In this document: in pieces, positions 3,854 to 40,365 of the stretch | Layout of the letters: each line of letters starts with the position of its first letter | Position numbering within the stretch: the stretch's first letter is position 1 | Assembly: GCA_021792795.1 (NCBI GenBank) | Contig: JAJYUB010000033.1 | Coordinates: 1 to 40,795, forward strand | Direction of reading: 5' to 3' | From: Acidobacteriota bacterium | GTDB lineage: Bacteria; Acidobacteriota; Terriglobia; Terriglobales; Acidobacteriaceae | Length of the DNA: 40,795 bases | Program-made: the position numbers and the translations under genes | Notes under the pieces: generated by a model | What the model saw: only the letters and a program-made list of their open reading frames with translations | Database searches by the model: none | What the model was told of the DNA's origin: nothing

Positions 3854-3861
3854 GGAGAACT

Positions 3862-6116: not shown

Positions 6117-6141
6117 CGGAGTGCAGAAGAGGAAGTTTGTC

Positions 6142-6972: not shown

Positions 6973-6975
6973 TCT

Positions 6976-7797: not shown

Positions 7798-7803
7798 CGA
7801 ATT

Positions 7804-8481: not shown

Positions 8482-8507
8482 CCATGCGTGCCTGTGAACT
8501 TGTTTTG

Positions 8508-8816
8508 CTATTTTCCGCTCAACACATCGACGCGCACCGAGCCATCGGGAAACACGGCCCGGATCTCCAGACTCCCGCCCATGGCCTCGACATAGCTCCG
8601 CAGCGTGCTCAGGTACATATCGGTGCGCTTCTCGATCTTGGAGACCGCGCTCTGGTTGACACCCAACGCCTGCGCCATGTTGGTCTGGGTCAGGCTGCGC
8701 GCGGAACGCAGTTGTTCCAGCGGCAACTCCGCAAGCAGCTTCGCGCTGCGAGCCTTGATCTCGGCCCGGTCCTTTGCGCTCATCCTCCTGGTCAGTTCAC
8801 TGAATTTACGCGCCAT
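8508..8816 (-). CDS. higA: HigA-like XRE antitoxin
   Basis: A 102-residue antitoxin of a HigBA-type pair. A helix-turn-helix of the XRE/Cro fold lies at about residues 40-62 (SLTQTNMAQALGVNQSAVSKIE), followed by RTDMYLSTLRSYVEAMGG, which is conserved in partners of Gp49-type RelE toxins. It is downstream of the toxin frame by 15 bp, the normal higB-higA order, and probably represses its own promoter. It runs against the surrounding transfer genes, so the pair is an insertion into the operon. The frame is intact although the toxin is not. Confidence 0.88.
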   Translation of the reverse strand: MARKFSELTRRMSAKDRAEIKARSAKLLAELPLEQLRSARSLTQTNMAQALGVNQSAVSKIEKRTDMYLSTLRSYVEAMGGSLEIRAVFPDGSVRVDVLSGK

Positions 8817-8831
8817 GATTCTTCTCTCCTG

Positions 8832-9179
8832 TTATGTAGCTTGGCCGCTCTCTTTGAGGTACACCGCAAACAGCTTTTCCGCCTTCGGAACGTGCGTGTC
8901 GTACCAGCGGTCGTTGCCCGTTTTGTTTCCACCCAGCAGCAGGACCGCGTTGCGCCTGGGGTCGAAGGCATAGAGCACCCGGTACGGTTTGCCAGCGTGT
9001 TGCACGCGAAGCTCGCGCAACTTCGTGGAACCGGCAATGCTGGAGCTGTAGGGAAACGGAAGCGCTGTCCCTCTCTCTTCCAGCAGGGCAACCACGACCG
9101 CCACACTCTTCTGTTCCTCGACGGCAAGCGTGTCCCATCAGCGTTCAAACTCCGCTGTCACCAGCATCTCGGTCGCCAT
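8832..9179 (-). pseudogene. higB: HigB/Gp49-type toxin with in-frame stop at codon 14
   Basis: Read from the ATG at 9179, the frame encodes MATEMLVTAEFER, then TGA (9140-9138), then WDTLAVEEQKSVAVVVALLEERG and a complete Gp49/RelE-like domain ending at 8832. Members of this family have two aromatic residues at this spot, so the stop most simply replaces a TGG Trp codon. Conserved family features downstream are intact (YSSSI, RELRVQH, PYRVLYAFDPRR, GNKTGNDRWY). A shorter 90-residue product from the GTG at 9104 would lack the first helix. It is probably inactive, unless read through or the base is a sequencing error. Confidence 0.8.
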
Positions 9180-9259
9180 GACCCAAGTATTCCATATCGA
9201 GACTATTCCGTCAAAGGACTAATGAGGATTGCACGGTCAGAAAGGCATGGCCTGTACGC

Positions 9260-10810: not shown

Positions 10811-11373
10811 GTCGGCGTGCACGAATCCGGACGATGCAGACGCGTATCTCCCAATCCCAAAAGGAGCGTGGCGTCTTCCGCCGTGCCGACCGAAAGCGTG
10901 CGCTGTGCGTCCCGCGTTCCACTCCGTCGCCCAGAGCATACCCTTCGCATGGCACGACAGCGGGAGCGATGCGGACCATCGGAGAGCATGGTTCACCCAC
11001 CCCCTGCCTGTTGCAGCCGGGAAAGTGGCAGGCGACTTGGTATGGTTTTCCTGCTGTCCGGTTGCACGGGCGTCTTTATTCAGATGCCCTTCAGAGGGAA
11101 GTTTCCATAGAGGGCCAATTCTCCCATATTTTCCCTGCTCACCTCCGGTCACTCGCTCGGTGCTTGTCCCGCGCCCGGCGGGAACTGCGCGGCTCTGCTT
11201 CCAGCCCTGCGGGTTTCGGTTTCCAGAAAATCTTTTGCGTACAGAACGCGCAAAACATTTTCCAGACCCTCCGAAAAAGCGCCGCTTGCCCTTGGGAGCG
11301 GGGCACACTCGCGTCGCTTCGCGCAGGAGTGTCCCGGAGGCAATCCGGGCAAATACAAACAGGAGAAACCATC
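10811..11373. other. Hairpin-rich spacer before ssb
   Basis: A 563-bp stretch without a believable gene. An open frame runs through it into ssb, starting with a GTG that overlaps the methyltransferase stop, but its 189-residue product is Arg/Ser-rich, has no family look and would be fused ahead of a normal ssb start. The spacer holds four inverted repeats: 11167-11172/11178-11183, 11226-11239/11249-11262, 11305-11310/11327-11332 and 11333-11338/11344-11349. In the leading regions of some plasmids such folds act as promoters in single-stranded DNA (Frpo of F). That role here is inference. Confidence 0.5.
11226..11262. repeat. 14-bp imperfect inverted repeat, 9-nt loop
   Basis: Arms 11226-11239 and 11249-11262 pair at 13 of 14 positions around the loop 11240-11248. 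The core is TTTTGCG/CGCAAAA with an outer GAAAAT/ATTTTC. It lies about 110 bp before the ssb start. The palindrome 529-545 before virB2 shares the string TGGAAAAT with its complement, a weak hint of a common regulator. Confidence 0.55.
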
Positions 11374-11781
11374 ATGGCACTCTACGAAAACAAAATCACT
11401 CTGAAAGGCTACATCGGCAAGAACGCCGAGAGCTTTGCAACCAAACAGCAGAACACCCTGGTGGTCCTGTCGCTGGCCACCAAGTCCGGCTACAAGGACA
11501 AGCAGAACAAGCAGTGGGTGAACCACACCGAATGGCACCGCATCGTGGCTTTCGGCAAGCCCGCCGACTATGCGAAGGGCCTCAAGAAAGGCGACTACGT
11601 CGAGGTCGAAGGCGAGTTGCGCTCGACCGAGTTCGATGCCGAAGTCGGCGACGGCAAGAAGAAGGCCACAGTCAAGCGCCGGGGTTGGGAAATACGCGCC
11701 AGCATCGTCAGAAAGCTGGCGCAGCCTGAACCCAACGGCAGTTCCGATGCCGAATCCATCTCCGAGGAGGACGCCGCGTGA
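11374..11781 (+). CDS. ssb: Single-stranded-DNA-binding protein, copy 1
   Basis: A 135-residue SSB with an OB fold (residues 1-112: NKITLKGYIGKNAE, NHTEWHRIVAFGKPADYA, GDYVEVEGELR). It would coat transferred single strands. The ATG at 11374 has an AGGAG site nine bases upstream. The acidic tail ends in SEEDAA rather than the DDDIPF-type tip that recruits host repair and replication proteins, which suggests a specialised role. It overlaps the following ssb-like frame by GTGA but is followed by a better internal start for that gene. Confidence 0.9.
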   Translation: MALYENKITLKGYIGKNAESFATKQQNTLVVLSLATKSGYKDKQNKQWVNHTEWHRIVAFGKPADYAKGLKKGDYVEVEGELRSTEFDAEVGDGKKKATVKRRGWEIRASIVRKLAQPEPNGSSDAESISEEDAA

Positions 11782-11813
11782 GCGGCGTTCCTTCTCCGAA
11801 AGGAGGCGCCATT

Positions 11814-12203
11814 ATGAACATCTTCCGCAACACCGTGACCCTGCGCGGATTTCTCGGTCGCAACGCCGAGGTTCCCACCTCCGATGGGATCAAGTTCGAC
11901 TCCTACGCGGTGCTCACGCTCTGTGTTGAATCCGGCACATGGAACAAAGCCGCCAACGAGTGGGTTCCACGGACTGCGTATCACCGGATCGTCTGCCCCG
12001 GTCCGTATTTCTGCGGTTTCACGCGAGGTATGGAGCAAGGCGACTATCTCGAAATCGAGGGAGAGCTTCGCATCGACCTTGTGGTGGACAGCGCGGCTCC
12101 GAAAAATCCACATCAGGAATGCCGGGTATACGCAACACAGATACGCCGGCTGGAAATCCCCGCTCTCGGCGTCGAAGAAGGGGCCGGGCGCGAGGACACC
12201 TGA
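11814..12203 (+). CDS. Single-stranded-DNA-binding protein, copy 2
   Basis: A 129-residue second OB-fold protein (NTVTLRGFLGRNAEV, TAYHRIVCPGPYF, GDYLEIEGELR), divergent from copy 1. The ATG at 11814 is preceded by GAAAGGAGGCGCC; the GTG at 11778, overlapping copy 1, is a weaker alternative. Its tail (VEEGAGREDT) also lacks an IPF tip. Two adjacent, divergent SSBs may form hetero-oligomers or act on different strands or stages. A terminator-like hairpin follows. Confidence 0.85.
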   Translation: MNIFRNTVTLRGFLGRNAEVPTSDGIKFDSYAVLTLCVESGTWNKAANEWVPRTAYHRIVCPGPYFCGFTRGMEQGDYLEIEGELRIDLVVDSAAPKNPHQECRVYATQIRRLEIPALGVEEGAGREDT

Positions 12204-12222
12204 CTCCCGCTGCTTGCAATCC

Positions 12223-12252
12223 TGCGGAGAGGAGAAATTCTCTCCGCATTTT
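12223..12252 (+). terminator. Rho-independent terminator after the ssb pair
   Basis: Nine-base stem (12223-12231 with 12240-12248, TGCGGAGAG/CTCTCCGCA), eight-base loop, then TTTT at 12249-12252. It would separate the methyltransferase-ssb unit from the downstream genes, at least partly. Confidence 0.6.
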
Positions 12253-12303
12253 CTCTGGAATTGCCGCTCACGCCATAACAGGAACGCGGCGGAAAGGATA
12301 CCG

Positions 12304-12612
12304 ATGATTGCCAATGCCGTCTTTGTCGCCACGCTGATCTTTCTTGCGCTTGGCTTTGGGTTGATGCACGAGCTGCGCTTCCTCGCGCCGTGGCGCAGCC
12401 TGATCGTGCATGCGTACTTGCAGCCGATCGCAACCTACTGCGCGCTGCTGTTCGCCAACATTCTCGGTCTCACCATCTGGATCGAGCGCAAGTTCTTTCT
12501 CCGCGACACAGGCCGGAAGCTCCGGCACTTTGACCGGGAAATCCACACTGGCCAGAGCGAGTTGTCGGAAGAAATCCTTTCCCGCTTCGGGAAAGAAGAG
12601 GAGGAACGGTAG
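12304..12612 (+). CDS. Small two-helix membrane protein, unknown
   Basis: A 102-residue protein with two hydrophobic helices (about 4-20 and 38-58) and a charged, probably cytoplasmic helical C-terminus rich in Glu, Lys and Arg. The ATG at 12304 follows GGAAAGGA. I do not recognise the family. Its position among the DNA-processing genes suggests a membrane-linked accessory of conjugation, such as surface exclusion or relaxosome tethering, but nothing in the sequence proves it. Confidence 0.65.
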   Translation: MIANAVFVATLIFLALGFGLMHELRFLAPWRSLIVHAYLQPIATYCALLFANILGLTIWIERKFFLRDTGRKLRHFDREIHTGQSELSEEILSRFGKEEEER

Positions 12613-12614
12613 CC

Positions 12615-12917
12615 ATGCTGCATGACGACCAATTTATGGAGCGCACGCCCGATCTTGTCGCCAAAATCCGCAAACTGCGGGAGGCGGCGGAGAAAGAGAT
12701 GAACAAATTCACCCGCGTGGCCGACTACGACGTGCGTCGCGTAGCCGGCCAGAAGCTGAAAACTTCATCGGTCTCTGGAGAAACCGGCACACCTCCTCAG
12801 GCAAAGGGATGCGTGGAATTGCCTGCCCCGGTACCCGCCGCCATCCGATCCTCGATCAAACTTTTGCCTGCTCCTGCTCCTGCGGAACGCCGGAATGACC
12901 CGGAGACCTCCCAGTGA
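12615..12917 (+). CDS. Small hypothetical protein with N-terminal helix
   Basis: A 100-residue product starting three bases after the membrane-protein stop. Residues 10-45 form a charged amphipathic helix; the rest is Pro/Ala/Ser-rich and probably disordered. The stop overlaps the next start (GTGA), so the two are probably co-translated. No family is recognised. It may be a short adaptor in the DNA-processing complex. Confidence 0.55.
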   Translation: MLHDDQFMERTPDLVAKIRKLREAAEKEMNKFTRVADYDVRRVAGQKLKTSSVSGETGTPPQAKGCVELPAPVPAAIRSSIKLLPAPAPAERRNDPETSQ

Positions 12918-13972
12918 GAATCGATATCCACCAGGATGAGCCTCGGCGCAGAGAGGTCGTGCCGGACGAGCTGCTGTCGCCGGACACGAGAAAGATTCCA
13001 CCCCGTCCCGCACCGGAGACGCCGGTGCAGCGCCGGCTCGAATCGCTGTGGGAACGCGCCGACAACCGCCAGCCCGTCCACCCACACTCCCGCAGGGAGC
13101 ACCCTGCCGTTTCCCTCGATCGGCCACGAAAGCAACGTTCTCGCAGTGTAGAGGCGGATGACCGGCGTCCGGCCCGTCCTGTCGCATCGGACGCCTCCAG
13201 CATCGAGTTGCGCACGGAAGAGAAGAAACTGTTGACCGAGGCCGGACGCTTTCGCGTCGTCCGCGTCGAGGACCTGAGTAAAACGATCTATGACGGCAAA
13301 TCCAGGAAACTCGCAAACGACCTGAACTATCTCCGGGAAAAAGGCCTGGTCGAGACCCGGCGCGTGAACCTGCGTCACGATGGAAAGCGGCGCGCCATCG
13401 AGCGGGTCGAAGTAGTCACGCTGACCAAAGAGGGTCGCAGCCTGCTGGTCCACCAGGGTGATTTGCCTCGTGATCAAAGAGTGTATGCCGGACTGGTCAA
13501 GCCGCGCGAGGTGGAACACGATTCGCAGATTTACCGCGCCTACCGAAAGGAAGCGGAAAAAATCGTCGAAAAGGGCGGCACGAATCTGCGTGTGCGTCTC
13601 GATTTTGAGATCAAAGCGGAGGTCCAAAAAGCGATTTACGCCCACCGTAAGGCCGATCCTGCACGCGACATGGCCGAAATCAAACAGCAGGTCGCGGAGC
13701 GGTTCGAGCTGCCATTTGTCGATGGAAAGATTCAGATCCCCGATGCGCGCATTGACTACGATCTGCCTCGCGAAGCAGGTCACGACATCGAACAGGGGTC
13801 CCGCACTGGCCATGAAGATATCGAAGTGCTGACCGCCGCGTATCACGCCGGGCACCTGCGCTCGAAAGCCAGGGCCGGTTTCCGCAACTATGCGTCAGCC
13901 TCCGATCGCGCCACCCTGACCGCCAGGATTGAGGACGACCACAATCTCATGGAAAGCATTTTGGATCTGTAG
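12914..13972 (+). CDS. Winged-helix protein with possible nuclease-like C-domain (A)
   Basis: A 352-residue basic protein. Residues 1-95 are Pro/Arg-rich and disordered. A winged helix follows at about 97-175 (KKLLTEAGRFRVVRVEDLSKTIY ... VTLTKEGRSLL). The C-terminal half has RLDFEIK, then LPFVDGKIQIPDARIDYD, then a DIEVLTAAY segment and KARAGFRNY. The order winged helix, then PDARIDYD and a later acidic beta strand, recalls plasmid replication-relaxation proteins and PD-(D/E)xK-type folds, but I cannot confirm homology and see no HUH motif. The GTG start overlaps the preceding stop; the next gene begins three bases after its stop. Confidence 0.6.
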   Translation: MRIDIHQDEPRRREVVPDELLSPDTRKIPPRPAPETPVQRRLESLWERADNRQPVHPHSRREHPAVSLDRPRKQRSRSVEADDRRPARPVASDASSIELRTEEKKLLTEAGRFRVVRVEDLSKTIYDGKSRKLANDLNYLREKGLVETRRVNLRHDGKRRAIERVEVVTLTKEGRSLLVHQGDLPRDQRVYAGLVKPREVEHDSQIYRAYRKEAEKIVEKGGTNLRVRLDFEIKAEVQKAIYAHRKADPARDMAEIKQQVAERFELPFVDGKIQIPDARIDYDLPREAGHDIEQGSRTGHEDIEVLTAAYHAGHLRSKARAGFRNYASASDRATLTARIEDDHNLMESILDL

Positions 13973-13974
13973 CT

Positions 13975-15015
13975 ATGGATTACGATCCCATTCCGTTGCT
14001 TGAAAATGCCGGGTACACCGAGCAGGAAGCCGCCTTCCTCTACCTGGTTGCCGTCCATTCCGGTTACTTTCTGCGCCGGCAGTTTTGTCGCTTCATTGCC
14101 CGCGACCGGGGCAAACTGGCTGACCGGTTCATCCAGAAGGGCCGCCAACTCGCCCACCTCCAGGTGATCGAATGCGGCCAAGCCCGTCATGTGTACCACC
14201 TGACATCGCGGCCTGTGTACCTTGTCGCTCTTCGTAAGGACTCGCAGCACCGGCGCTTCAAAGGTTACGGCTGCATGCAGTCTCGGCTGCTCATTCTGGA
14301 TTTCGTGCTCGACAATCTTGCCGAAACCGTCCTCGAAGATGAATCCGCGAAGGCCGCATTTTTCACCGCGCGGTACTCCATTCCCGCCGAGCTGCTACCC
14401 CACGGTGGACTGGCCGGGGCACAGTTCTTCCCCGACGGCTATCCAGTTTTCGTTTCCCCGGACGGCAAACCCCGCTTCACCTTCTTTGAAGACGGGTCGG
14501 TCACTGTCGCCCGGTTCGAGCGGTATCTCGATCGGTACCGTCCGCTTTTCTCCGCACTGGAGGCCTTTGAACTGATTTACCTATCCGATGTCGAAAAGAG
14601 TTTTCCCTTCGCGCGGGACGCGTTTGCCTCGCGCTTTACCGAGACGGAGACCGTTGGCGTCACGGAGCGGACGCCTCTCGGTGTTGAACACTTTCTCCAC
14701 TTCCTCGCGGTCAAGCATCGTTCAGAGACCGGCGGCGGTGGCATTCCCACTACCGATCTTCAAGTGCTGCGCCAGGGAGAATCGCTGTACACCACGCTCG
14801 AACACCAGGCGCTCTATGCGGCGTGGAAGATGGGAAGCGCCACCGCCGCCAGGATTCGTCAGCGGTTTATCACTCCAGGGCCGCAGGCAAAGTTCACAAC
14901 GCTTCGGCTGCCGTACATCTATCCGCTGTTCCATCTGAAGCGGGAGCGGAACCCAAAGCAAAAACACGGGTCACGAGTGTGGTCACCGGAGCGGTCACTG
15001 CGAGAGGAGGGCTGA
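13975..15015 (+). CDS. Winged-helix protein with possible nuclease-like C-domain (B)
   Basis: A 346-residue protein. Residues 10-85 look like a winged helix (YTEQEAAFLYLVAVHSGYF, RQFCRFIAR, HVYHLT). The middle and C-terminal parts contain FFPDGYPVF, RFTFFEDGSV and FERYLDRYRPLFSALEAFELIYLSD. This resembles the acidic-strand-then-helix layout of replication-relaxation proteins and mirrors protein A. A and B together may supply the missing relaxase or replication initiator. The family is not recognised with certainty. It ends beside the probable oriT spacer. The start codon at 13975 follows the upstream stop by two bases. Confidence 0.6.
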   Translation: MDYDPIPLLENAGYTEQEAAFLYLVAVHSGYFLRRQFCRFIARDRGKLADRFIQKGRQLAHLQVIECGQARHVYHLTSRPVYLVALRKDSQHRRFKGYGCMQSRLLILDFVLDNLAETVLEDESAKAAFFTARYSIPAELLPHGGLAGAQFFPDGYPVFVSPDGKPRFTFFEDGSVTVARFERYLDRYRPLFSALEAFELIYLSDVEKSFPFARDAFASRFTETETVGVTERTPLGVEHFLHFLAVKHRSETGGGGIPTTDLQVLRQGESLYTTLEHQALYAAWKMGSATAARIRQRFITPGPQAKFTTLRLPYIYPLFHLKRERNPKQKHGSRVWSPERSLREEG

Positions 15016-15289
15016 GGATGCAGAGACAACGAGTTACCCAGATACATGGGGTCAGGAAGAGGTGTATGGCGGAGGCGGGAGCGACGGCATTGCTTCGCAA
15101 TTCCCGCGTCGGCTGCGCCGCGCTGGTCGCTCCCGCCTCGGCACGCAACGTATCCAGAAAATATCGGCTGCGGATATTCCATAGATCGGCGCTGGATACA
15201 AGTCAGATCAAGTCAGCATCCATCGCTGATCCATATCGCAACCGGGACAGATGCACAACCGATTCCAACTTCATCCACAGGAGAATTCC
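15016..15289. other. Candidate origin of transfer (oriT) region
   Basis: Non-coding. It contains a perfect 14-bp inverted repeat (15072-15085 and 15126-15139, GAGGCGGGAGCGAC and complement) whose 40-nt interior holds a small hairpin (15089-15093/15097-15101). It also has a second inverted repeat (AATATC at 15160-15165, GATATT at 15173-15178) and two CAAGTCAG direct repeats at 15199-15206 and 15209-15216. These repeats are 10 bp apart, one helical turn, as for ribbon-helix-helix binding sites. It lies between the winged-helix pair and an RHH-like gene followed by virD4, the usual setting of oriT. No known nic consensus was identified. Confidence 0.5.
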
Positions 15290-15607
15290 ATGAGCAAACT
15301 GAAACTGGAACACGGCGTCAGCAGGATTCGGCGCGCCAAGCTGCAATCCTCCATCGACCAGACCATTGCCGACGACGTCGAACTGTTGGCGCAGTGGTCG
15401 AACAATGAAACGAACTATGTCGTCAACGAGCTACTGCGTTTCGCTCTCATGCAGGAAGAGGAGTTTCAGAGATACAAGGGAAGCCCTGCTGCGAGCACTG
15501 CGCGATCAGCCGTAGCCGCGAAGTCGTCTCCATTTCCAATCAACAAAGTATCCGACCCTGCTGCGAAACCGAATACAGCGACGCCGAGCGCGGCAGCCCA
15601 CACATAG
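15290..15607 (+). CDS. Ribbon-helix-helix-like relaxosome accessory protein
   Basis: A 105-residue protein. Residues 1-58 look like a ribbon-helix-helix module: basic N-terminal strand, IDQTIADDVELLAQWSNNETNYVVNELLRFAL helices. Residues 65-105 are Ala/Pro/Ser-rich and flexible. The ATG at 15290 follows CAGGAGAATTCC. RHH proteins of this size commonly bind oriT and recruit the coupling protein, and virD4 starts 15 bases after its stop. An alternative is a simple autorepressor. The RHH assignment is by pattern, not by search. Confidence 0.6.
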   Translation: MSKLKLEHGVSRIRRAKLQSSIDQTIADDVELLAQWSNNETNYVVNELLRFALMQEEEFQRYKGSPAASTARSAVAAKSSPFPINKVSDPAAKPNTATPSAAAHT

Positions 15608-15622
15608 GAAAGGCATCGACAC

Positions 15623-17671
15623 ATGCGCTATGGAGTTGCACTTCAGAACATCATCCGTTCATTGGTCGAGTACCGCATCGCGCTTTCGCTGGGACTGAGC
15701 GCAGCGTGTGGCATCGTCCTCAACAGCTTGTTTCCGATCAACACAAGCAATTCTCTGCTCCGCCTGATGACGCTCGAACGGCCTCCGGTCTTTCAGGGCC
15801 TGGTCTGGAGCTATGACATATTTTTGTACAGCACGCCCTTTCTGGCTTTCTCCATGATCTTCTCGCTTCTGTACGTCCATCTATATAGGAAGGATACGGA
15901 GCAGGCCGCTGGAGCGTTGCCGCCCTATCCCGATCCTCGTGCCCGTAGGTACTTATCTCTGGTGCTGGGCGAAGTCCATCGCCAGCTTTTGCCATTGCCC
16001 AGTCCGGCCCCGCAGTGGCTCTCGATCCCGGAGCGCGGTCTCTATACCGGCATCGCATCGTTCGGCTCCATCGGCTCCGGAAAGACCTATGGATTGATCC
16101 TGCCTGCCATGCGCCAGTTGTTCGCGTACCGTGCCAACGACCCGATACGCAAACTCTCCGGCATTGTGCTCGAAGTCAAGGGCGATCTCTGCCGCCAGCT
16201 CCAAAGCATCCTGAAATGGTGCGGACGGGAACAGGATTACATCGAGATTTCGCTCGATGGCGACCTCCGTTATAACCCGCTGAACAATTCGCTCGACCCT
16301 TACGCCCAGGCATTCAATATTGCTTCGATCATCACCAGCATCTGGGGCAAAGGCCGTGAACCGTTCTGGCAGCAGTCCTACACGGATCTGGTCCGATATG
16401 TCATCCTGCTGCACCGCATCCGCGACGGATACCTGACGATGGTCGATCTCTTCCGTACCGTCATCAGCGCGGGGTGCCTCGAAGAGATGTTGACCGAAGT
16501 TGGCGCGCGCTTCAGCACTGCCAGCTATATCGGCATCGGCAAAGAGGCGTACCGCGATCACGAATCGCTTCTCGCCCCACTGGGATGCGAGTGGAACCAA
16601 GCTGCCGGTCTGTATGTGATCGCGTGGACGGAGGAGTTGGAACGGTTGCTGATCGAGGAAACCTCCGCAGGCTTCGATGTCTTCACTCGCAAGGGATACC
16701 AGCCGGAACAGCGCGACCGCTATGCAAGCATCGAGTATTGGTACTGGGAGCATTGGAAGTTCTTTCGCTCCGAAGTCAAGACGTCCATCGTCCAGGGCAT
16801 CGTCGTCTTCCTGTCGTTGTTCGAGACCGATCCCCAGGTGCGCCGCGTCTTCTGCCCACCGAAAGAACTCTATGAAGGCAAGTCCTGTTGTTCCGATCCT
16901 AACGGTCGCATCCTACCGCCCTTCGAGGACTTGATCGAATCTGGTAAAGTTGTCGGTTTGAACTTTCCAGTGGCCCTGAACCCGGCGCTGGCCAAAACCA
17001 TCGGTACCATGATGAAGATCGACTATCAGCGGGCCGTGCAACTGCGTATTCCGAAGATGGATGCACACCCGGAGAAGCATTTCCGCCCGACTGTTTTTAT
17101 CTGCGACGAGTACCAGAACTTTGCCACCGTCGGCGGCGACAATCCGACGGGCGATGAAAGATTTTTGTCCATCTCGCGCCAACCGAAGTGCATCCCCATT
17201 GTCGCGTCGCAGAGCATCTCCAGCCTGACCGAGGCCCTGCCCAACGAAGGCGTAAAAACGTTGCTACAGGCATTTCGCACGAAAGTATTCCTTACTACTT
17301 CTGACCCGGAAACGGCACGCTACGCCTCCGAGCTTTGCGGTAAATCCGACCGCACCCGCATCAGCTATACCGTATCGGAATCAAGCTCAAATGCCAATGT
17401 GGGCTGGCTTTCGGGTCGCACATCCTCCAGTAAGGGATCCGTCTCCGCTTCCAAGCAGTACCAGAAACATAAAGAGCCACTGTTTGAGGAAAAGACTTTT
17501 TTCGATCTAAAGAACGCGCAGGCCGTGGTGGTAGCTTTCGACGGCGTCAGTCCGCTGCCTCCCACTTTTTGCTATCTAAAGCCCGACTTCCTGCCCGTCA
17601 CCATGACCTGGTTCGAGCAAGAAAAGATTGGCTTCGACCCTGGGTTGATCCAGAAGGAGGCACAGTCGTGA
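15623..17671 (+). CDS. virD4: VirD4/TraG-type coupling protein
   Basis: The 682-residue inner-membrane ATPase that delivers the DNA-protein substrate to the T4SS channel. Two N-terminal transmembrane segments (about 17-36 and 54-79) precede the motor domain with Walker A GSIGSGKT (148-155) and Walker B FICDEYQNF (DE at 495-496), followed by the SQSISSL segment typical of TraG/VirD4. The C-terminus is acidic and lacks obvious extra domains. The stop overlaps the virB11 start (GTGA). It is complete and likely functional. Confidence 0.93.
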   Translation: MRYGVALQNIIRSLVEYRIALSLGLSAACGIVLNSLFPINTSNSLLRLMTLERPPVFQGLVWSYDIFLYSTPFLAFSMIFSLLYVHLYRKDTEQAAGALPPYPDPRARRYLSLVLGEVHRQLLPLPSPAPQWLSIPERGLYTGIASFGSIGSGKTYGLILPAMRQLFAYRANDPIRKLSGIVLEVKGDLCRQLQSILKWCGREQDYIEISLDGDLRYNPLNNSLDPYAQAFNIASIITSIWGKGREPFWQQSYTDLVRYVILLHRIRDGYLTMVDLFRTVISAGCLEEMLTEVGARFSTASYIGIGKEAYRDHESLLAPLGCEWNQAAGLYVIAWTEELERLLIEETSAGFDVFTRKGYQPEQRDRYASIEYWYWEHWKFFRSEVKTSIVQGIVVFLSLFETDPQVRRVFCPPKELYEGKSCCSDPNGRILPPFEDLIESGKVVGLNFPVALNPALAKTIGTMMKIDYQRAVQLRIPKMDAHPEKHFRPTVFICDEYQNFATVGGDNPTGDERFLSISRQPKCIPIVASQSISSLTEALPNEGVKTLLQAFRTKVFLTTSDPETARYASELCGKSDRTRISYTVSESSSNANVGWLSGRTSSSKGSVSASKQYQKHKEPLFEEKTFFDLKNAQAVVVAFDGVSPLPPTFCYLKPDFLPVTMTWFEQEKIGFDPGLIQKEAQS

Positions 17672-18597
17672 GTTTTGAGATTATTGTTCCGTTTCTAAAA
17701 CCCATCCGTCATCTGCTAGAAGCAGAGACCGTCAGCGAAATCATGGTCAACCCGGATTCTTCGGTCTGGATGGAGGAGGAAGGAAAGATTCAATTGCTGC
17801 ACGGCGTCCGCTTTGAAGACGGCACGTTGCTGACCGGTCTCGAAGTCATCGCCAACCGCTTCGGCAAGAAGCTCGACGCCGACAGCCCGCTCTTGAATCT
17901 GCGGCTGCCCGATGGCAGCCGTCTGGCGGCGGCCATCCCGCCCCTTGTCCACCCGCAGCCGCTCGTGACCATTCGCAAGTTCACTTCGCAGAGCTTCACG
18001 ATGAATGACCTGATCGAACGAAAGATGCTGACGTCGGAACAGGCTGCCACATTAATCGATGCGGTCGTGCGGGGCGACAATCTACTCATCTCAGGCGGAA
18101 CCTCGACGGGAAAAACAACACTCCTCAATGTTCTCGCCGACGCCATCCCAGACTCCGAGCGCATCCTGGTCATCGAAGACACGGCGGAACTGTATCTCCG
18201 CAAGCGGCACGTAGTGTCGGCGGAGACCCAGACCGATACTCATAGGACCTCCGTCACATTCGACGACCTGTTGAAGGCCGCGTTGCGTCACCGGCCCGAC
18301 CGGATCATTCTCGGGGAAATCCGTGGGAAGGAAGCACGCACATTCCTCGATGCTCTGAACACTGGCCATCGCGGATCGCTTTCCACTATCCACGCCAATA
18401 GCGCCGGAGATGCGCTAAGGCGGCTGGCGCAGCTTGCCGTGCGAGGTGCAGGAGGCGGAATCCCTCTGCAGGATGTCGAGGAGGAATGCGTGAGATCCAT
18501 CGACGTGATCGTCCATGTGAGAAATCAGGACGGATGTCGCCACATTGCGGAAATCCGCGCATCATCTGAATTCGACGCTAATCGACACACATCTTGA
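17668..18597 (+). CDS. virB11: VirB11/TrbB-type hexameric ATPase
   Basis: A 309-residue traffic ATPase. Walker [10 protein letters not shown] is at residues 143-151, an Asp box (VIEDTAEL) follows, Walker B with [12 protein letters not shown] lies near 207-218 and the His box ([12 protein letters not shown]) near 233-244. The GTG at 17668 overlaps the virD4 stop; the frame is open upstream, but only within virD4. Its location after virD4, far from virB2-virB8, splits the T4SS into two blocks. It is the last gene of the conjugation module. Confidence 0.93.
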
Positions 18598-32348: not shown

Positions 32349-32930
32349 TTACTGCGGTGGCGCGCCTTTCGGCAGGGTGAAGAACGCAAACACCAGCATG
32401 ACGGCAACCATGAGTACCGTAACCGACCATGTAACGATGCGCATCTCCTTGGCTGGAGCAATTCCAGAAAGCCGCCGCGAGGCCGGACGCAACGCCCGCG
32501 AAGCCAGCGTGAACGCGGAAAACACCAGCGGCCCGATCCATTGGCCGCCACGGTCTCCGGCCAGCAGGTGAGAAGCCGCCGCGCCTGCGTAATCGAAGAA
32601 CGCACCGGCGTAGGCCCATTCCTTAAGCCTGGGAAATCTTGGCGCGAGCAGCGCCAGCGCGCACGGAATCCTCGGCACTCCGAGGATGTACAGCAAATAG
32701 AGCGGATAGCCGAGATGTGTAAGCACCACACGGACATATTCGATGCGCAGAAGGTCCCATAATCCACCGGCAGCCATTTCAAACGCCACCGGGAGCGTGA
32801 GCAGCCAGTACGCAGTTGTGAGCATCCACGCCTTGCGCCCTTGCGGTGGAGCATCTTCTTCGTGCCGTGTCGCAAACACGCCTGCCGTTGTCATGATTGC
32901 TATCAGAGCAATTAGAATCGCAGCCGTCAT
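32349..32930 (-). CDS. DoxX-like membrane protein
   Basis: A 193-residue protein. A short N-terminal helix is followed by a DoxX-like four-helix bundle (about 38-140: AYWLLTLPVAFEMAAGGLWDLL, VVLTHLGYPLYLLYILGVPRIPCALALL, FPRLKEWAYAGAFFDYAGAAASHLLAGD) and a final transmembrane segment. DoxX-like proteins are small quinone- or redox-linked membrane proteins of mostly unknown role. The ATG at 32930 is preferred for the GGAGG ten bases before it; 32939 is possible. It is downstream of the multicopper oxidase operon but separated by the IS110 remnant. Confidence 0.75.
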   Translation of the reverse strand: MTAAILIALIAIMTTAGVFATRHEEDAPPQGRKAWMLTTAYWLLTLPVAFEMAAGGLWDLLRIEYVRVVLTHLGYPLYLLYILGVPRIPCALALLAPRFPRLKEWAYAGAFFDYAGAAASHLLAGDRGGQWIGPLVFSAFTLASRALRPASRRLSGIAPAKEMRIVTWSVTVLMVAVMLVFAFFTLPKGAPPQ

Positions 32931-33055
32931 AAAGAGCATGCCTCCGCATTTATTTTGCTCGTGGCCCGTCTGATGTGATAAGGCCGAAGGCTTCTACGAT
33001 GGATCTGTGGTTTTTGGTTGAGGACCAGGAACTGCGGGAGCAAGGAGAAGCCTTC

Positions 33056-33184
33056 ATGAAAATTATAGGTTGTGATTTTCATCCGGCATGGCAACAAGTA
33101 GCGGTTTTCGATGATGAGACAGCGGAGATTGCGGCTCTGCCGGGGGATACTTACTTTCTGTTCGCTCAAGACGTTACGTACTGA
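33056..33184 (+). mobile_element. IS110-family transposase remnant (N-terminus)
   Basis: MKIIGCDFHPAWQQVAVFDDET is the hallmark start of IS110-type (DEDD) transposases, with the first catalytic Asp. About 25 residues in, the frame continues into unrelated sequence overlapping the multicopper oxidase 3' end and stops at 33184. The remaining transposase and the right end are gone. An upstream in-frame extension to 32975 is probably transposon leader. Confidence 0.6.
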
Positions 33185-34542
33185 ATCAGTTGCATGAAGC
33201 CGCCGTCCATGTGCATCTGCTGATGGCAATGGAACAAAGTAGGTCCTGGGTTGTCGGCGACAAAGTCCACTTCCGCAGTGCCGTATGGAGTCATGCTGAT
33301 GACATCTTTGATTAAGCCAGACGTAGGTTGACCGTTGATGCTGACAACTTCAAAGCTGTGTCGATGCAGGTGGACTGGATGGGGACAGCCACTGGCATCG
33401 TAGAAACCGAGCCGATAGCGTTGGCCCTGCTTCACCTTTAACGGCGGGATATTGGGAAAGGAGCGGCCGTTGATGGTCCACGCATCCGGCGCGCCGTTCG
33501 GCATCGTGATTCTCTGAAACACCATTGGAAACGTCTCGTCAGGAGGCAACGCAGCGTCGGTCCCGCCGAAGATGCGATAGTTCCATTCGCTCACCGGAGG
33601 ATCGTTCCAGGTCGGCTGGCCCGAAGAACCAACGTACTCAATCGGAATGCCGAGGCCGATCTCGCGCTCTTTCCTGTTTGTTGAGCCAAGTATCCAGACA
33701 CCCGGAGTATTCATTTCGACCACGGCGTCGATTCGCTCGGCCACGGCGAGCGAAAGCACCGCGACTTCCTTCGGATGCGGTATAGGATTACCGTCGAGCG
33801 CGATGACTTTGAACTGATGCCCGGGGAGCGCGAGAACAACATTCTCAGTCGCGCTGGCATTCAGGAATCGAAACAGGACTCGGTCTCCCTGGTGTACTTT
33901 GATGGGCTCGGCGGCAGAAAGGACTTTGTCATTGAACGAGGCGTGTTTGTAGCTCACCTCACAGGGCTGCCCGGGACCCATCGGCATGAACGTCGGTTCC
34001 CAATGATGCACCGCGAGTAATACTTCGCGGTCATAGTTTCCGGCATCGCCTGCTCCCTCGACGATCAGAAAACCAAATTGTCCGGTATAAGTGGAGAGGG
34101 AAAAGTCCATTCCTGCACTCGTATGCGTGTGATACCACCTTGTTCCCGCTGGCTTTGGTGTAAAGCTGTAGCGGAGGCGACCCTGAGAAGGAATCATTGG
34201 AGAGCCTTCTTCCATGGCTCCGTCATTCAGAGAATCGATATGCAATCCATGCCAGTGAACGAGTTCTGCGTTGGCCGAATCGTTGAATACGTCGATCTCA
34301 ACTGGCGAACCTTCTTTCAAGCGAAAAACAGGGCCGGGAACAGTTCCGTTGTACCCAACTGTGCGGATCTGAATTCCGCTTCCTAAATCGAGTGTCATTG
34401 GCCTGATATGCAGGGTATGTTCAGCGGGTTCAAGGGAGTGGTCCTGAGCCGTTTGCGTGGTGCGCTGCAATGACCATAATCTTTGCGCGATGCCGCCCAT
34501 TAGTGTCGATCCAAACTTGACTGCAAATTCTCGACGATTCAT
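33166..34542 (-). CDS. Tat-exported multicopper oxidase
   Basis: A 458-residue three-domain multicopper oxidase. A Tat signal (NRREFAVKFG) is followed by all four copper motifs: HWHGLH (96-101), WYHTH (136-140), HPVHLHRH (388-395) and FHCHQQMHMDGGFM (437-450). The type 1 ligands are His 388, Cys 439 and His 444. The axial position (Cys+10) is Phe 449, not Met, with Met 450 next to it; a non-coordinating residue here is linked to high redox potential in fungal laccases. It is last in a four-gene operon and probably accepts electrons in the periplasm from metal ions, organics or the neighbouring cytochrome, reducing O2. Confidence 0.9.
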   Translation of the reverse strand: MNRREFAVKFGSTLMGGIAQRLWSLQRTTQTAQDHSLEPAEHTLHIRPMTLDLGSGIQIRTVGYNGTVPGPVFRLKEGSPVEIDVFNDSANAELVHWHGLHIDSLNDGAMEEGSPMIPSQGRLRYSFTPKPAGTRWYHTHTSAGMDFSLSTYTGQFGFLIVEGAGDAGNYDREVLLAVHHWEPTFMPMGPGQPCEVSYKHASFNDKVLSAAEPIKVHQGDRVLFRFLNASATENVVLALPGHQFKVIALDGNPIPHPKEVAVLSLAVAERIDAVVEMNTPGVWILGSTNRKEREIGLGIPIEYVGSSGQPTWNDPPVSEWNYRIFGGTDAALPPDETFPMVFQRITMPNGAPDAWTINGRSFPNIPPLKVKQGQRYRLGFYDASGCPHPVHLHRHSFEVVSINGQPTSGLIKDVISMTPYGTAEVDFVADNPGPTLFHCHQQMHMDGGFMQLIQYVTS

Positions 34543-34583
34543 TCGTGTTCCTCACATACGGCTTTGGTCAAACAGTGCTTGTA

Positions 34584-35141
34584 TCAACGCTTTGCCATGG
34601 CATGCACATCAGGTCTTGGGTCGGACACAAAACCATTTCGATTCGGCATTCGGACCTTCGGTAGCGTGATCTGGTTCATGACCTCATCTCTCGCAATGAT
34701 GTGATTGAGATAGAGAATGTAGGCAGTCACCGAATAGGTTTCGTCCACTGACAGCGTTCCGGGGTTCGGATAGTACGGCATGGCGCGATGAATGTAGTCC
34801 CAGACCGAGGTGCTGTATGGCCAATAGCTCCCAACCGTAAGCACGGGATTTGGAGTTCGCAGACTGCCGATCCCGCCTACAAGCTGCGGCCCTACCGGAT
34901 CGTGGCCCTCTCCGTGCATGCCGTGGCACCCGCCGCACTTGTTCACGAAGATGATCTCGCCGTGGGCTGCTGTGCCGCTGCCAATCGGCATGCCAGTGCC
35001 GTCGGGAAGTATGGGAGACTTCCATTTACGAAGCTCTTCTGCCGTGGGAACGCGCCCGATGTGCCCGACCGTGCTTTGGGCAAAAAGAAATGACAGGCCG
35101 GACACAGTCAGCAATGCCAGGAGAGCGCCTGCCTTACGCAT
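34584..35141 (-). CDS. Periplasmic c-type cytochrome, SoxD/SorB-like
   Basis: A 185-residue protein with a signal peptide (cleavage after LFAQ) and one haem c site, CGGCH at residues 69-73, followed by a typical class I fold. A candidate distal Met lies in the AMPYYPN segment. It starts eight bases inside the end of the molybdoenzyme gene, so the pair is translationally coupled, as in SoxCD or SorAB, where the cytochrome takes electrons from the molybdenum centre. Loss of the signal or haem site is not seen. Confidence 0.88.
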   Translation of the reverse strand: MRKAGALLALLTVSGLSFLFAQSTVGHIGRVPTAEELRKWKSPILPDGTGMPIGSGTAAHGEIIFVNKCGGCHGMHGEGHDPVGPQLVGGIGSLRTPNPVLTVGSYWPYSTSVWDYIHRAMPYYPNPGTLSVDETYSVTAYILYLNHIIARDEVMNQITLPKVRMPNRNGFVSDPRPDVHAMAKR

Positions 35142-36372
35142 AGGTCAGCTCCCCAGTGCGCTTCACGCGCCACCATTTGATTCCGTTGTAGTGGTTGTAT
35201 CCATCAGGGCCGGCCGTCAGACCACGGACGGCTACAAGTTCGTCTCGCGTCGGTTGCCAATAACCGGTGTCATCCTGGCAGCGCGAGGCGATGGTCGTCT
35301 CCTGTCCATCCCAGGTCCAGGGAAACCGAAAGCGGGTAAGTGCTTTGGTGAGGATCGGCTTCTGCAAATCAGCTTCCTTCCAGTCCCGTCCGCCGTTTAC
35401 GGAAACTTGCACGCGTTGAATACGCCCTCTGCCAGACCACGCTAACCCGCTGATCTCATAAAATCCGCGTCCGTCGAGAACTTGACCGCCAGCAGGTCGC
35501 GTGATGACGGATTTGGCTTCCATCACAAACGTGAACTGGCGAGCTTTCCCGTTCGGAAGGAGGTCGGTATAGCTGGCGGCCTCATCTTTTGTCATCGCTG
35601 GCTGATCAATGAGAGTCAGCCTTTGCAGCCATTTGATGTTGATATTTCCTTCCCAACCAGGCACTACCAGACGTAGGGGATATCCCTGCTCGGGACGTAA
35701 GGCTTCACCATTCTGGCCATAGGCCACGATGATGTCCTCCATTGCTTTTTCCAGAGGAATGCTTCGCGCGAGACGGCAGGCGTCAGCCCCTTCTGCATAA
35801 ACCCATGTCGCCTTCGTCTTCACGCCAACATCCTTGAGAAGTGTGGAAAGTGGCACACCTGTCCACTCCGCACAACTCACAAGACCATGGCTTTTCTGAG
35901 GAGTATCGCCCGGCTCACCCGCCTGTTCAGAGCCGCTGTTGCCAGCGCATTCGATGAAATGAACGCGCGAAACAGATGGCATTCTTTCGAGGTCTTTCAT
36001 TGAGAAAATCAGCGGAGTCTCCACAAGGCCATCGATCAAAAGTTGGTGCTGCGCAGGATCGATGGATGGCACGCCAGCATGTAACCGCTCGAAGAACAAT
36101 GCAGAAGGCGTAATGATTCCATACAAATCCTGAAGCGGGGTTCGAGCTGACCCAGTTCCGCCGTAGGCTCCGGGATTGAAATATCTTCCTGCCTTTTCGA
36201 AGCTCGACCGCTCACCATAGCTTCGTCGCGGCTGGCCTACCTCGTGGATGACCTCCTGGCCAATTGCTGGAGCTGCCAGAGAGGACATTGCGCCCAGCCT
36301 GACAAATTGCCGGCGTGAAAGAGCGCCCAAAGGTCGAATCCCACTTTGGCCAGATGTCACGTTACCTCTCAT
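35134..36372 (-). CDS. SoxC/sulfite-oxidase-like molybdopterin enzyme
   Basis: A 412-residue periplasmic molybdoenzyme. The Tat motif SRRQFVRLG is at residues 19-27. The molybdopterin domain has the ligand Cys 142 in HFIECAGNSGSEQAGE, as in SoxC, then ...CAEWTGVPLSTLL, EGYPLRLVVPGWEGNINIKWL-like and a C-terminal dimerisation domain (RVQVSVNGGRDWKEADL, FRFPWTWDGQ). SoxC members oxidise sulfur-level substrates and SorA members oxidise sulfite; the substrate here is uncertain given the arsenic context. ATG 36372 overlaps the preceding gene by 11 bp (a TTG at 36378 would be the ORF limit). Confidence 0.88.
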   Translation of the reverse strand: MRGNVTSGQSGIRPLGALSRRQFVRLGAMSSLAAPAIGQEVIHEVGQPRRSYGERSSFEKAGRYFNPGAYGGTGSARTPLQDLYGIITPSALFFERLHAGVPSIDPAQHQLLIDGLVETPLIFSMKDLERMPSVSRVHFIECAGNSGSEQAGEPGDTPQKSHGLVSCAEWTGVPLSTLLKDVGVKTKATWVYAEGADACRLARSIPLEKAMEDIIVAYGQNGEALRPEQGYPLRLVVPGWEGNINIKWLQRLTLIDQPAMTKDEAASYTDLLPNGKARQFTFVMEAKSVITRPAGGQVLDGRGFYEISGLAWSGRGRIQRVQVSVNGGRDWKEADLQKPILTKALTRFRFPWTWDGQETTIASRCQDDTGYWQPTRDELVAVRGLTAGPDGYNHYNGIKWWRVKRTGELTYA

Positions 36373-36907
36373 TTGCAACCTGCTTCTTCATCGCAATCGC
36401 AAAGGTAGAGCAGCCACCGCTCCACTGAACAGTAGAGCGAATAGAGGAAGGCGCTTGATTGCGACCAATCTCTGCGAACCCATGCCGCCGCCAATATGAA
36501 ATCGCATCGGTTGTCAGCAAATACACCGTCGAGACATTATGCCCGGCTGCCCAGCGGAGGCGGTCTTGCGTCAACTGCCGGGCGAGTCCTTGAGAGCGGA
36601 ACGATGGCACAACAGCAACCGATCTGAGAAGCGCATTGTCTCCATAAACCTCAAGTCCCGCAACCCCGACCAGTCGGTCTTTGGCATCATGGGCAACGAC
36701 GTATTGCGGACCAAATTGCGATGCCGGATCGAGTGCTGCCAGATTGGAAGCCGACAAGAGAGCGGATACGGCGTCGTGATCCGAATCCATCGCTGTTCGC
36801 ACTTGGAATTCGCCGAACGGCGCCACCGATTGGGGAATCGGCTCAGACTTGCAGCAGGTCGGACCGCAACATGCTTTGGGAGCGCTGGTAGTAGCGTGAT
36901 TTGCCAT
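36362..36907 (-). CDS. arsN2: ArsN2-like N-acetyltransferase with Cys-rich head
   Basis: A 181-residue GNAT protein. The acetyl-CoA motif VVPSFRSQGLARQL (RxxGxA) and the late block APSSIRSTVQWSGGC match arsenic-associated ArsN2 proteins. ArsN-type enzymes acetylate toxic amino-acid arsenicals or phosphinothricin-like compounds; the exact substrate of ArsN2 is not settled. The head ACCGPTCCKS is an unusual vicinal-cysteine cluster that could bind As(III), which is inference. The ATG at 36907 follows GGGGGAG. It is first in the operon and divergent from arsR. No arsenic efflux or reductase gene is nearby. Confidence 0.75.
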   Translation of the reverse strand: MANHATTSAPKACCGPTCCKSEPIPQSVAPFGEFQVRTAMDSDHDAVSALLSASNLAALDPASQFGPQYVVAHDAKDRLVGVAGLEVYGDNALLRSVAVVPSFRSQGLARQLTQDRLRWAAGHNVSTVYLLTTDAISYWRRHGFAEIGRNQAPSSIRSTVQWSGGCSTFAIAMKKQVANER

Positions 36908-36936
36908 TGAAGGACTCCCCCTTCCATAAACATCCG

Positions 36937-36954
36937 CTAATCCGAATATATTAG
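36937..36954. promoter_or_regulatory. Candidate ArsR operator
   Basis: Inverted repeat CTAAT (36937-36941) and ATTAG (36950-36954) around an 8-bp AT-rich centre, between the divergent arsN2 and arsR starts. Together with the AT alternation at 36979-36990 this would place a repressor over both promoters. Its spacing and AT-rich arms resemble ArsR/SmtB operators. Individual -10 boxes are not clear. Confidence 0.45.
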
Positions 36955-36994
36955 TTTGCATTGCATTCGTCAAAACGTATATATATATGGGATC

Positions 36995-37411
36995 ATGACA
37001 ACGAAGGAGGGGTTCTGCTTCGAAAGATTCTTCCAGGCATTAGGAGACAATACCCGGCTTCGTCTCTTGAACCTAATGGGCGATCAGGATCTCTGTGTCT
37101 GTTATTTCGTCGAAGTGCTCAATCAACCGCAACCCAAAATCTCCCGGCATCTTGCCTATCTACGAAGCGCCGGGCTCGTTCACGCGAGGCGCGATGGCAA
37201 ATGGATGCACTATCGCATCGTGATGCCTCGCAATGAATGCGCAAGAAGGGTTCTGCAAGAGCTTTTTCGGCATTTCAAAGAAGAGAAGGTCATGCTGGCC
37301 GATCACGCAAAACTGACCAAGGCGTGCAGCGCGCCAGAGAAGTTTGTGACTTTGCAGGGTGCGCCTATACCGACACCTGTTGCATCATCCCCGGTTTTCG
37401 CTTCGAGGTAA
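36995..37411 (+). CDS. arsR: ArsR-family metalloid-responsive repressor
   Basis: A 138-residue winged-helix repressor. The helix before the recognition element carries CVC (Cys 34 and Cys 36, in DLCVCYF), the As(III)/Sb(III) sensing pair of classic ArsR proteins; a further Cys lies near residue 110. The recognition helix is QPKISRHLAYLRSAGLV. The ATG at 36995 has only a weak ribosome site. It probably represses itself and the arsN2-soxC-cytochrome-oxidase operon until a trivalent metalloid binds. Confidence 0.9.
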   Translation: MTTKEGFCFERFFQALGDNTRLRLLNLMGDQDLCVCYFVEVLNQPQPKISRHLAYLRSAGLVHARRDGKWMHYRIVMPRNECARRVLQELFRHFKEEKVMLADHAKLTKACSAPEKFVTLQGAPIPTPVASSPVFASR

Positions 37412-39237: not shown

Positions 39238-40365
39238 CTACAAAGTAGCTGCCAAAGTGTCCTGCATCGCGACTGTTTTCGGAGCGCTCGTCGGACTTTT
39301 TTTCGCCGCCAGTCGCTCCCTGGATTTCAGCGACGCTTGCGCTCGCTGATCTGCTGTCCATGCCTTCGCTCTCCGAGGGGACGGCTTTCCCCTTAGTTCG
39401 CTATGGATGGAGTTGACCGTTGCCTGCACGCTTTCGGGAATCTCCTGCATGTAGACATCGGTGGTGGTTGCCGTTCTGGAGTGCCGGAGAACACCCTGCA
39501 CGTCCTTTACTGTGCCTTTCTTCTGAGCGAGCGTCGCAATCGTTCGCCGGATGACCTGAAACGTCAGCTTTGGCAGCCCCAGGTCTTTCGCCAGTTTGTG
39601 AAGCACCCGCTTCCGGTAGTTGTCCGTGTCCAGAAATCCCCCGGATTGATTCGGGAAGATGAAGGCTTCAGGAGACGGATCGGGAGCCTGCTGTCTCCAC
39701 GCTGCAAGTTGCTTCGCCAGGTCTCTCGGTAGATGCACCGTGGCGAGGCTTCTTTGAGTTTTGCCCCAGGGGCGAATTTTGCCCTTGTAGACAGTCTCTG
39801 TGACGCTCATGGAGCAAGCGGCTTCGTTGAAGCACTTCCACCGGAGCCCAAACAACTCGCTGGGACGGAGTGCATTTGTCATGTCCAGTTCGAGCAGCAG
39901 GCGATCCCGGTCATCCAACTCGGACAGTGCCTTCCTCAACTGATCCCACGTCAAGGTCGTCTTATCCGTCTCGCGTAGCTGTGTTGGAACCTTCACCTTA
40001 CGCGCGGGGTCTTTAGCGAGGAAATCCTGATCGGCGGCCTCGGCGAAGATGTCCCGCATGTATGCCCTCATCTGAAGCACTCTGTCTCTGGATTGGGTTT
40101 TGGCCAGTTTGTTGAGGTGGACCTGCAACGTGAATTTGTCGAAGTTCTCCAGCAGGACATCCTCGAAATCATCGATGAGGTCTTGCTGGATCAGCATCGT
40201 CTTCACCTTTGCAGTTTCTTCTTTCCAACTCGCCTCCTTCAAAGGAAGGAAGCGATTGCGAACGAACCATCCGAAGGTGACAGAGCCATCGTTAACAGCT
40301 TTGCCGCCCAGAGACTGTCCGGTCAGTTTGGCGATCTCTCGTTCCAGCGATTCGCGCGCCACCAA
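39238..40365 (-). CDS. int: Tyrosine recombinase/integrase, N-terminus truncated by IS66
   Basis: At least 375 residues of a phage-type integrase. Catalytic set: Arg 167 (ALRPSELFGLRW), Lys near 202 (GKTQR), the HxxR box as QVIR (Gln 270 and Arg 273), His 295 (LRHSR) and Tyr 305 (TTDVYMQ). The Gln in the HxxR box occurs in some relatives. The frame opens with a TTG at 40365 and hits a stop six bases into the IS66 end; the usual N-terminal arm-binding part is missing. Strand-exchange residues remain, but attachment-site binding is probably lost. Confidence 0.85.
   Translation of the reverse strand: MVARESLEREIAKLTGQSLGGKAVNDGSVTFGWFVRNRFLPLKEASWKEETAKVKTMLIQQDLIDDFEDVLLENFDKFTLQVHLNKLAKTQSRDRVLQMRAYMRDIFAEAADQDFLAKDPARKVKVPTQLRETDKTTLTWDQLRKALSELDDRDRLLLELDMTNALRPSELFGLRWKCFNEAACSMSVTETVYKGKIRPWGKTQRSLATVHLPRDLAKQLAAWRQQAPDPSPEAFIFPNQSGGFLDTDNYRKRVLHKLAKDLGLPKLTFQVIRRTIATLAQKKGTVKDVQGVLRHSRTATTTDVYMQEIPESVQATVNSIHSELRGKPSPRRAKAWTADQRAQASLKSRERLAAKKSPTSAPKTVAMQDTLAATL

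Follow-up and report, generated by a model that had tools for sequence, protein, structure and literature searches.

Gene layout and predicted control of the operon

The window, a 40,795-nucleotide stretch of contig JAJYUB010000033.1 from an Acidobacteriota bacterium (assembly GCA_021792795.1), carries an arsR repressor gene that is divergent from genes for an ArsN2-like acetyltransferase, a SoxC-like molybdoenzyme, a cytochrome c and a multicopper oxidase (Table 1). The minus-strand genes overlap by 11 and 8 bp and are then separated by a gap of 41 bp. Recomputation of the coordinates reproduced these values exactly, and all five genes lie in the order and at the places given in a preliminary description of this DNA, whose proposal of a single transcription unit is supported. 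The motifs listed there can likewise be read in the translations. The SoxC-like protein has a SRRQF motif resembling a twin-arginine translocation (Tat) signal and a presumed molybdenum-ligand cysteine within IECAGN, the cytochrome has a single haem motif (CGGCH) in its 185 residues, and the multicopper oxidase combines a Tat-like NRREF with the copper motifs HWHG, WYHTH, HPVHLHRH and HCHQQMH. The nearest PDB chain to the multicopper oxidase is the laccase 4F7K. The periplasmic oxidation enzymes of the preliminary description are thus supported as secreted oxidation enzymes.

Table 1. Genes and regulatory sites of the operon, numbered from the first nucleotide of the window
Feature	Position	Strand	Evidence
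arsR (ArsR/SmtB-family repressor, 138 aa)	36995..37411	+	PF01022 45.5 bits; HTH_metalloreg 83.5 bits, cut-off 55
ArsN2-like GNAT acetyltransferase, 181 aa	36362..36907	-	NCBIfam ArsN2 118.9 bits, cut-off 125
soxC-like periplasmic molybdoenzyme, 412 aa, Tat signal	35134..36372	-	TIGR04555 531.6 bits, cut-off 420; 2XTS chain A
SoxD-like one-haem cytochrome c, 185 aa	34584..35141	-	PF00034; 2XTS chain B
laccase-like three-domain multicopper oxidase, 458 aa, Tat-like signal	33166..34542	-	PF07731/PF07732/PF00394
operator-like element ATACGTTTTGACGAAT, overlaps -35 box	36965..36980	-	exact pattern match
promoter-like site TTGACG-17-TATATT, reads into arsN2	36945..36973	-	consensus scan

The window ArsR contains the motif DLCVCYF (Cys34 and Cys36), a CVC-type site that we take, from its cysteine pattern, to mark an As(III)-responsive ArsR. 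Its paralogue on contig C94 of the same genome is 63% identical and has the corresponding motif ICVCY. The C94 locus is an arsenic locus in its own right, with acr3 and arsR reading to the left and arsM and arsC to the right; Acr3 scores over its cut-off, and ArsM reaches 285.3 bits where the arsenite methyltransferase model requires 263. Comparison of the two intergenic regions showed the element ATACGYYTTGACGAAT in both, overlapping on the enzyme side a promoter-like site TTGACG-17-TATATT, whose two hexamers and spacing are the same at the two loci. Sites found by the promoter consensus scan are no more numerous in the region than in shuffled sequences. Exact matches to the 16-bp element occur in the 4.04-Mb genome only in the window and at the C94 ars locus, and its presence there is circular, as the pattern was derived from these two regions. 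With up to two mismatches the genome has six sites, against three for a reversed control pattern. The best common 16-mer of the two intergenic regions matches at 14 of 16 positions, a level also reached by one of 300 shuffled pairs. Another genome (G468) has a single match at up to three mismatches in a 12.46-kb stretch, and it falls between arsN2 and the likely arsR start; 0.23 such matches are expected across the stretch, and 41 of 200 shuffles had one somewhere. The element may have been copied together with the arsR gene.

Judged from these sequence comparisons, the window operon is probably controlled by its ArsR in the same way as the acr3/arsM/arsC locus, a judgement that concerns arsenic control alone. 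The As(III)-type ArsR of the preliminary description is thereby backed by a predicted operator common to both loci, as well as by relatives of the SoxC-like protein adjoining other arsenic-type ArsR genes. Its statement that arsB or acr3, arsC and aioAB are absent stands in part. A tblastn panel found no ArsB, Acr3, ArsC (two kinds), ArsH or ArsM in the window, AioA lying outside this panel, and the genome has no AioA over the cut-off; however, acr3, arsM and arsC are present on C94.

The acetyltransferase has a cysteine-rich N-terminus (CCGPTCC) and scores just under the cut-off of the ArsN2 model, as does its G468 relative (114.6 bits). Among its plasmid relatives, 28 of the 30 listed are annotated as arsN2, and in genome G484 arsN2 is the first gene of an arsM-arsC-acr3 operon. 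The window operon resembles the ars operons with arsN2 (NCBIfam ArsN2; PMC6465285, in the part available) in its ArsR, its ArsN2 and a divergent or same-operon layout, such as the arsN2-arsM-arsC-acr3 order of G484. It differs from them, and from the classical ars operon, in having oxidation enzymes instead of an efflux pump or arsenate reductase. At L196:5215-7623 in G468, the divergent arsR/arsN2 pair precedes one gene of the PEP mutase family (PF13714) and one resembling carboxymuconolactone decarboxylase (AhpD-like), and this locus is possibly another arsenic cargo set.

The SoxC-cytochrome pair and its arsenic-linked clade

By sequence, the SoxC-like protein and the cytochrome form a SoxCD-type pair. 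The former passes the NCBIfam SoxC model TIGR04555 and is far under the cut-offs of the SorA and SorT models (144.2 of 600 and 124.7 of 570 bits). It matches chain A of PDB entry 2XTS with an E value of 4e-100, and the cytochrome matches chain B with an E value of 5e-41. We take 2XTS, whose entry names are 'sulfite dehydrogenase' and 'cytochrome', to be the SoxCD of Paracoccus. The window pair is like this sulfane dehydrogenase in both subunits, the soxC-cytochrome order, the export signal, the presumed molybdenum-ligand cysteine and the haem c. It differs in its one-haem cytochrome, full SoxD being di-haem, in its predicted ArsR control, in its arsN2 and multicopper oxidase neighbours and in a genome with no SoxB over the cut-off.

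A cytochrome relative accompanies soxC in 115 of 118 loci, the window included; two of the three misses lie at contig ends and the third is a weak remote match. Stand-alone soxC-cytochrome pairs without arsenic-operon genes are common on plasmids (five loci viewed). Because of the SoxCD-type matches, the near-constant cytochrome partner and these stand-alone pairs, there is nothing unusual about the pair when it is taken by itself. Across the phylum, 44 of 396 genomes have a SoxC match at E <= 1e-60. In a set of 61 relatives, matches are confined to two genomes, that of the window and one from another family of the class; the absence of a match from all 36 other genomes of the window's own family in this set suggests that the window genome acquired soxC. 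One genome (G056) has seven SoxC matches at this threshold, with several soxC-cytochrome pairs close together on contig C163 (L005 and L007).

In a careful tree of 46 SoxC proteins, the window protein falls within a nine-member clade with support of 98/98, and a quick tree of 83 rows, from which the 46 were chosen by score, gave the same clade with support of 98. The named members belong to the Acidobacteriota and, twice, to the Burkholderiales (Rhizobacter and Massilia). Three other members are linked to arsenic genes. The closest (L262, genome G1011; 69% identity over the aligned part) has a divergent ArsR with a C-terminal CCTRGVAC, and L261 (genome G1177, 65%) has a CVC-type ArsR immediately upstream on the same strand. 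In Rhizobacter sp. Root1238 (L260) the SoxC pair is embedded in an ars operon whose genes share one strand, in the order arsR-arsC-soxC-cytC-arsC-acr3-arsH. An arsenic-type ArsR or ars gene within 2 kb of soxC was thus found in three of the eight other clade members, against none of 74 rows outside the clade (Fisher p 6e-4). The count covers all 82 rows besides the window, and the flanks are 1 kb or longer on each side for 63 of the 74 rows outside the clade; the long-branch rows L107, L229, L027 and L029, perhaps in the wrong frame, were kept among the 74 and excluded from the careful tree. Two cysteine layouts are involved, CVC in the window and L261 versus a C-terminal CC...C in L262 and Rhizobacter, so that the ArsR-SoxC link looks, from the sequences, repeated rather than inherited once. 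Within the clade, Acr3 scores over its cut-off in both tested genomes with an ars-linked soxC (the window genome and Rhizobacter) versus none of five with an unlinked soxC, in a search that left out G1011 and G1177.

The preliminary description had suggested searching genomes for the four genes beside arsR, and named lack of their conservation together as an outcome that would refute its view. Panel searches of genomic stretches (166 in one search, some overlapping) found arsN2, soxC, the cytochrome gene and the oxidase gene together at no other locus, so the four genes are not supported as one conserved set, and for this set the refuting outcome applies. The unit that does recur is smaller, comprising soxC, the cytochrome gene and ArsR, and these genes are found together elsewhere. 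The multicopper oxidase was considered as a conserved ars partner and set aside as too weakly linked, since ars neighbours were found for its family at none of 18 loci of the phylum and two of five plasmid loci viewed. One plasmid oxidase (L152), apparently broken, is tail-to-tail with arsH; the other (L154) lies on the same strand upstream of arsR-arsC-arsB-arsH. In the oxidase family, 34 of 36 rows could be read at the presumed type-1 copper axial position, and all 34, with the window among them, have phenylalanine there. The CopA and CueO copper-resistance models both stay under their curated cut-offs (141.6 of 479 and 96.1 of 525 bits).

A search for further members of the SoxC clade gave 49 plasmid records, all under 60% identity, and nothing on viral contigs. 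In the order Burkholderiales, 23 of 399 genomes have matches at E <= 1e-120, none of which exceeds 59% identity apart from that of Rhizobacter; in the family of L262, matches were found in 3 of 89 genomes. Some other ArsR genes were not counted as arsenic links. The one downstream of soxC in Massilia (L041) looks zinc-type, with a CzcD-like gene following it (read by eye), and that of L172, outside the clade, is cysteine-rich and of no assigned type. The latter (CCDATGTCECPGDEAMCVGDL, L172:9177-9518, genome G061) lies immediately upstream of a more distant SoxC pair. In the Acidobacteriota member L040, a gene for a cysteine-rich MarR (5495-6040) precedes soxC, and in Rhizobacter the gene after arsH (L260:13639-14127) also encodes a MarR, the CC-TQC motif being similar in the two; these regulators are perhaps arsenic sensors of another family. 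After the latter gene, an ArsN2-like N-terminal stretch seems by eye to continue into a histidine-kinase-like frame (L260:14070-14257), perhaps a broken arsN2. In the open-licence PMC literature we found neither a description of the ArsR-linked SoxC clade nor a paper that places soxC within an ars operon; taken singly, both SoxCD-type enzymes and ars operons are known.

Possible substrate and alternative explanations

We tentatively favour an As(III)-inducible detoxification operon in which the SoxCD-type pair oxidises a reduced arsenic species, with a rough probability of 0.45 for the statement as a whole, substrate included. Without arsenic, ArsR would occupy the site overlapping the -35 box. 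Binding of As(III) to the CVC cysteines would release it, and the operon would then yield a cytoplasmic ArsN2-type acetyltransferase, an exported molybdenum-haem pair and a laccase-like oxidase. Enzymes of the sulfite oxidase family take two electrons from a lone-pair substrate, add oxygen and pass the electrons to a haem. In the same manner, the pair would most likely carry out a two-electron oxidation, with addition of oxygen, of a periplasmic arsenic species that is reduced and has a lone pair. The candidate substrates are arsenite, exported by Acr3, and methylarsenite, the product of ArsM. The electrons could pass to the cytochrome of the pair and from there to either a terminal oxidase or the multicopper oxidase. 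Both arsenite and methylarsenite would be expected in a cell with Acr3 and ArsM.

Searches for the established pathways bear on this choice. SoxB over the cut-off was found in none of the nine clade genomes, three of which have weaker matches, and as none of 14 control genomes passes either, the search had no positive control; it covered SoxB among the Sox proteins, and SoxX, SoxA, SoxY and SoxZ were not searched for. The window genome is 98% complete. AioA over the cut-off (359 bits) was also found in none of the nine, all of which have weaker matches, and no control genome passes. Because neither protein passes in any clade genome, the pair is not explained by a complete Sox cycle or by Aio, and together with the expected lone-pair substrates this favours periplasmic oxidation of reduced arsenic. 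A thiosulfate pathway, the first guess from the SoxCD-type matches, is not supported by the SoxB search.

Several observations weigh against arsenic as the putative substrate. The SoxC model match and the pocket look like those of an ordinary SoxC. The pocket Arg/His motif, HFERHH in most relatives, differs in the window, L262, L261 and L040; however, the arginine is changed only in L261, L262 and L040 and is kept in the window, and this change is not significantly more frequent in the clade than outside it (3 of 9 versus 12 of 75, p 0.2, in a comparison with L107 and L229 left out and three other SoxC rows added). The pocket residues were therefore dropped as a sign of adaptation to a neutral substrate. 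An AlphaFold model of SoxC on nine alignment rows, with a mean predicted local distance difference test (pLDDT) score of 57, was not used. The linkage itself is incomplete, as five of the nine clade members have no arsenic-type ArsR beside soxC: that of Massilia L041 is not classed as arsenic-type (nor are those of the outside rows L172 and L282), and the other four have no ArsR there. In addition, the ArsR search model was built from nine ArsR proteins including those of the window, L043, L261 and L262, so it contained proteins that it later found, and the arsenic-type label rests on cysteine patterns.

A close rival, ranking just behind oxidation of arsenic and somewhat more tentative, is a role in sulfur oxidation, the pair being a dehydrogenase for sulfite or sulfane sulfur that has come under arsenic control. 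During arsenic stress, sulfur assimilation would rise and thiols would be disturbed, and the pair would oxidise sulfite or reduced sulfur arriving in the periplasm; arsenic would be the signal and sulfur the substrate. The clear SoxC score (Table 1), the nearest structure 2XTS and the common stand-alone pairs on plasmids all fit this explanation, as does the report that in Herminiimonas sulfur assimilation, soxC and soxD are all induced by As(III), in a phase in which no As(III) oxidation was seen (PMC3022917, in the part available). Taken alone, however, it leaves unexplained the tie of one SoxC clade to ArsR and the position of the pair inside an ars operon. The altered pocket residues of the closest clade members, though not significant, also speak against it, and the SoxB result argues against a full Sox cycle while leaving room for plain sulfite oxidation. 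It is improbable, on the other hand, that the operon is a patchwork of cargo in which an unrelated soxC-cytochrome pair and a copper oxidase were inserted behind an arsR-arsN2 module, with accidental co-transcription and separate jobs. The arsR/arsN2 pair does go with other cargo in G468, the oxidase family extends well beyond ars loci, and the contig has conjugation genes, an integrase and an IS110-like remnant. Nevertheless, the genes overlap, and ArsR is paired with soxC separately in L261, L262 and Rhizobacter, both of which speak against accidental assembly.

The published Herminiimonas arsenicoxydans data, as given in the available part of PMC3022917, cut both ways. There, 15 min of As(III) raised soxC mRNA 312-fold, and soxD was induced as well. 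In this early phase the authors saw only As(III) and no oxidation, and in the late phase the aox genes were on and soxC was not induced. These data support arsenic induction of a soxC and speak against fast arsenite oxidation by it. A soxC strongly induced by As(III) would be its likeness to the window operon; the authors ascribe the induction to sulfur metabolism.

If the favoured oxidation of arsenic holds, the pair would carry out the reaction of the Aio and Arx arsenite oxidases, with molybdenum and a cytochrome c acceptor. However, Aio and Arx belong to one molybdoenzyme family, the DMSO reductase family (PMC6620896, in the part available), whereas the window SoxC belongs to the sulfite-oxidase family. 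According to the same part of that source, Thioalkalivibrio thiocyanoxidans oxidises As(III) without a known arsenite oxidase, and a SoeABC-like sulfur-type molybdoenzyme was proposed, from expression, as an alternative arsenite or thioarsenate oxidase. Unlike the window SoxC, this candidate is a cytoplasmic member of the DMSO reductase family encoded by different genes. The arsenic-linked SoxC-cytochrome clade is thus a testable candidate for As(III) oxidation without a known arsenite oxidase, and offers an alternative reading of the soxC induction in Herminiimonas. ArsR-linked SoxC enzymes may form an unrecognised step of arsenic detoxification; even with sulfur as the substrate, they would reveal how arsenic stress is connected to periplasmic sulfur oxidation. 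A broader proposal, rather unlikely at present, is that the ArsR-linked pairs represent another class of dehydrogenase for arsenite or methylarsenite, with a sulfite-oxidase fold in place of the DMSO-reductase fold of Aio and Arx, that would detoxify arsenic expelled by Acr3 and would have spread between Acidobacteriota and Burkholderiales by gene transfer.

Mobile setting and neighbouring genes

The window contig carries VirB4, VirB9, VirB10, VirB6, VirB8, VirD4 and VirB11-type genes between 1250 and 18597 and a tyrosine recombinase (integrase) gene at 39238-40365. It is probably an integrative conjugative element or a plasmid, and since the type IV secretion genes and the recombinase share the contig with the operon, the operon is probably cargo of a conjugative element. 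A C5 DNA methylase gene and an SSB gene also lie within 1250-18597. Directly behind the operon, a reading frame at 33056-33183 (MKIIGCDFHP...) abuts the stop codon of the oxidase gene and ends after 42 residues; it has no family match and is presumably the start of an IS110-type transposase. A DoxX-like gene lies past the multicopper oxidase at 32349-32939 and was left out of the operon because of this intervening frame.

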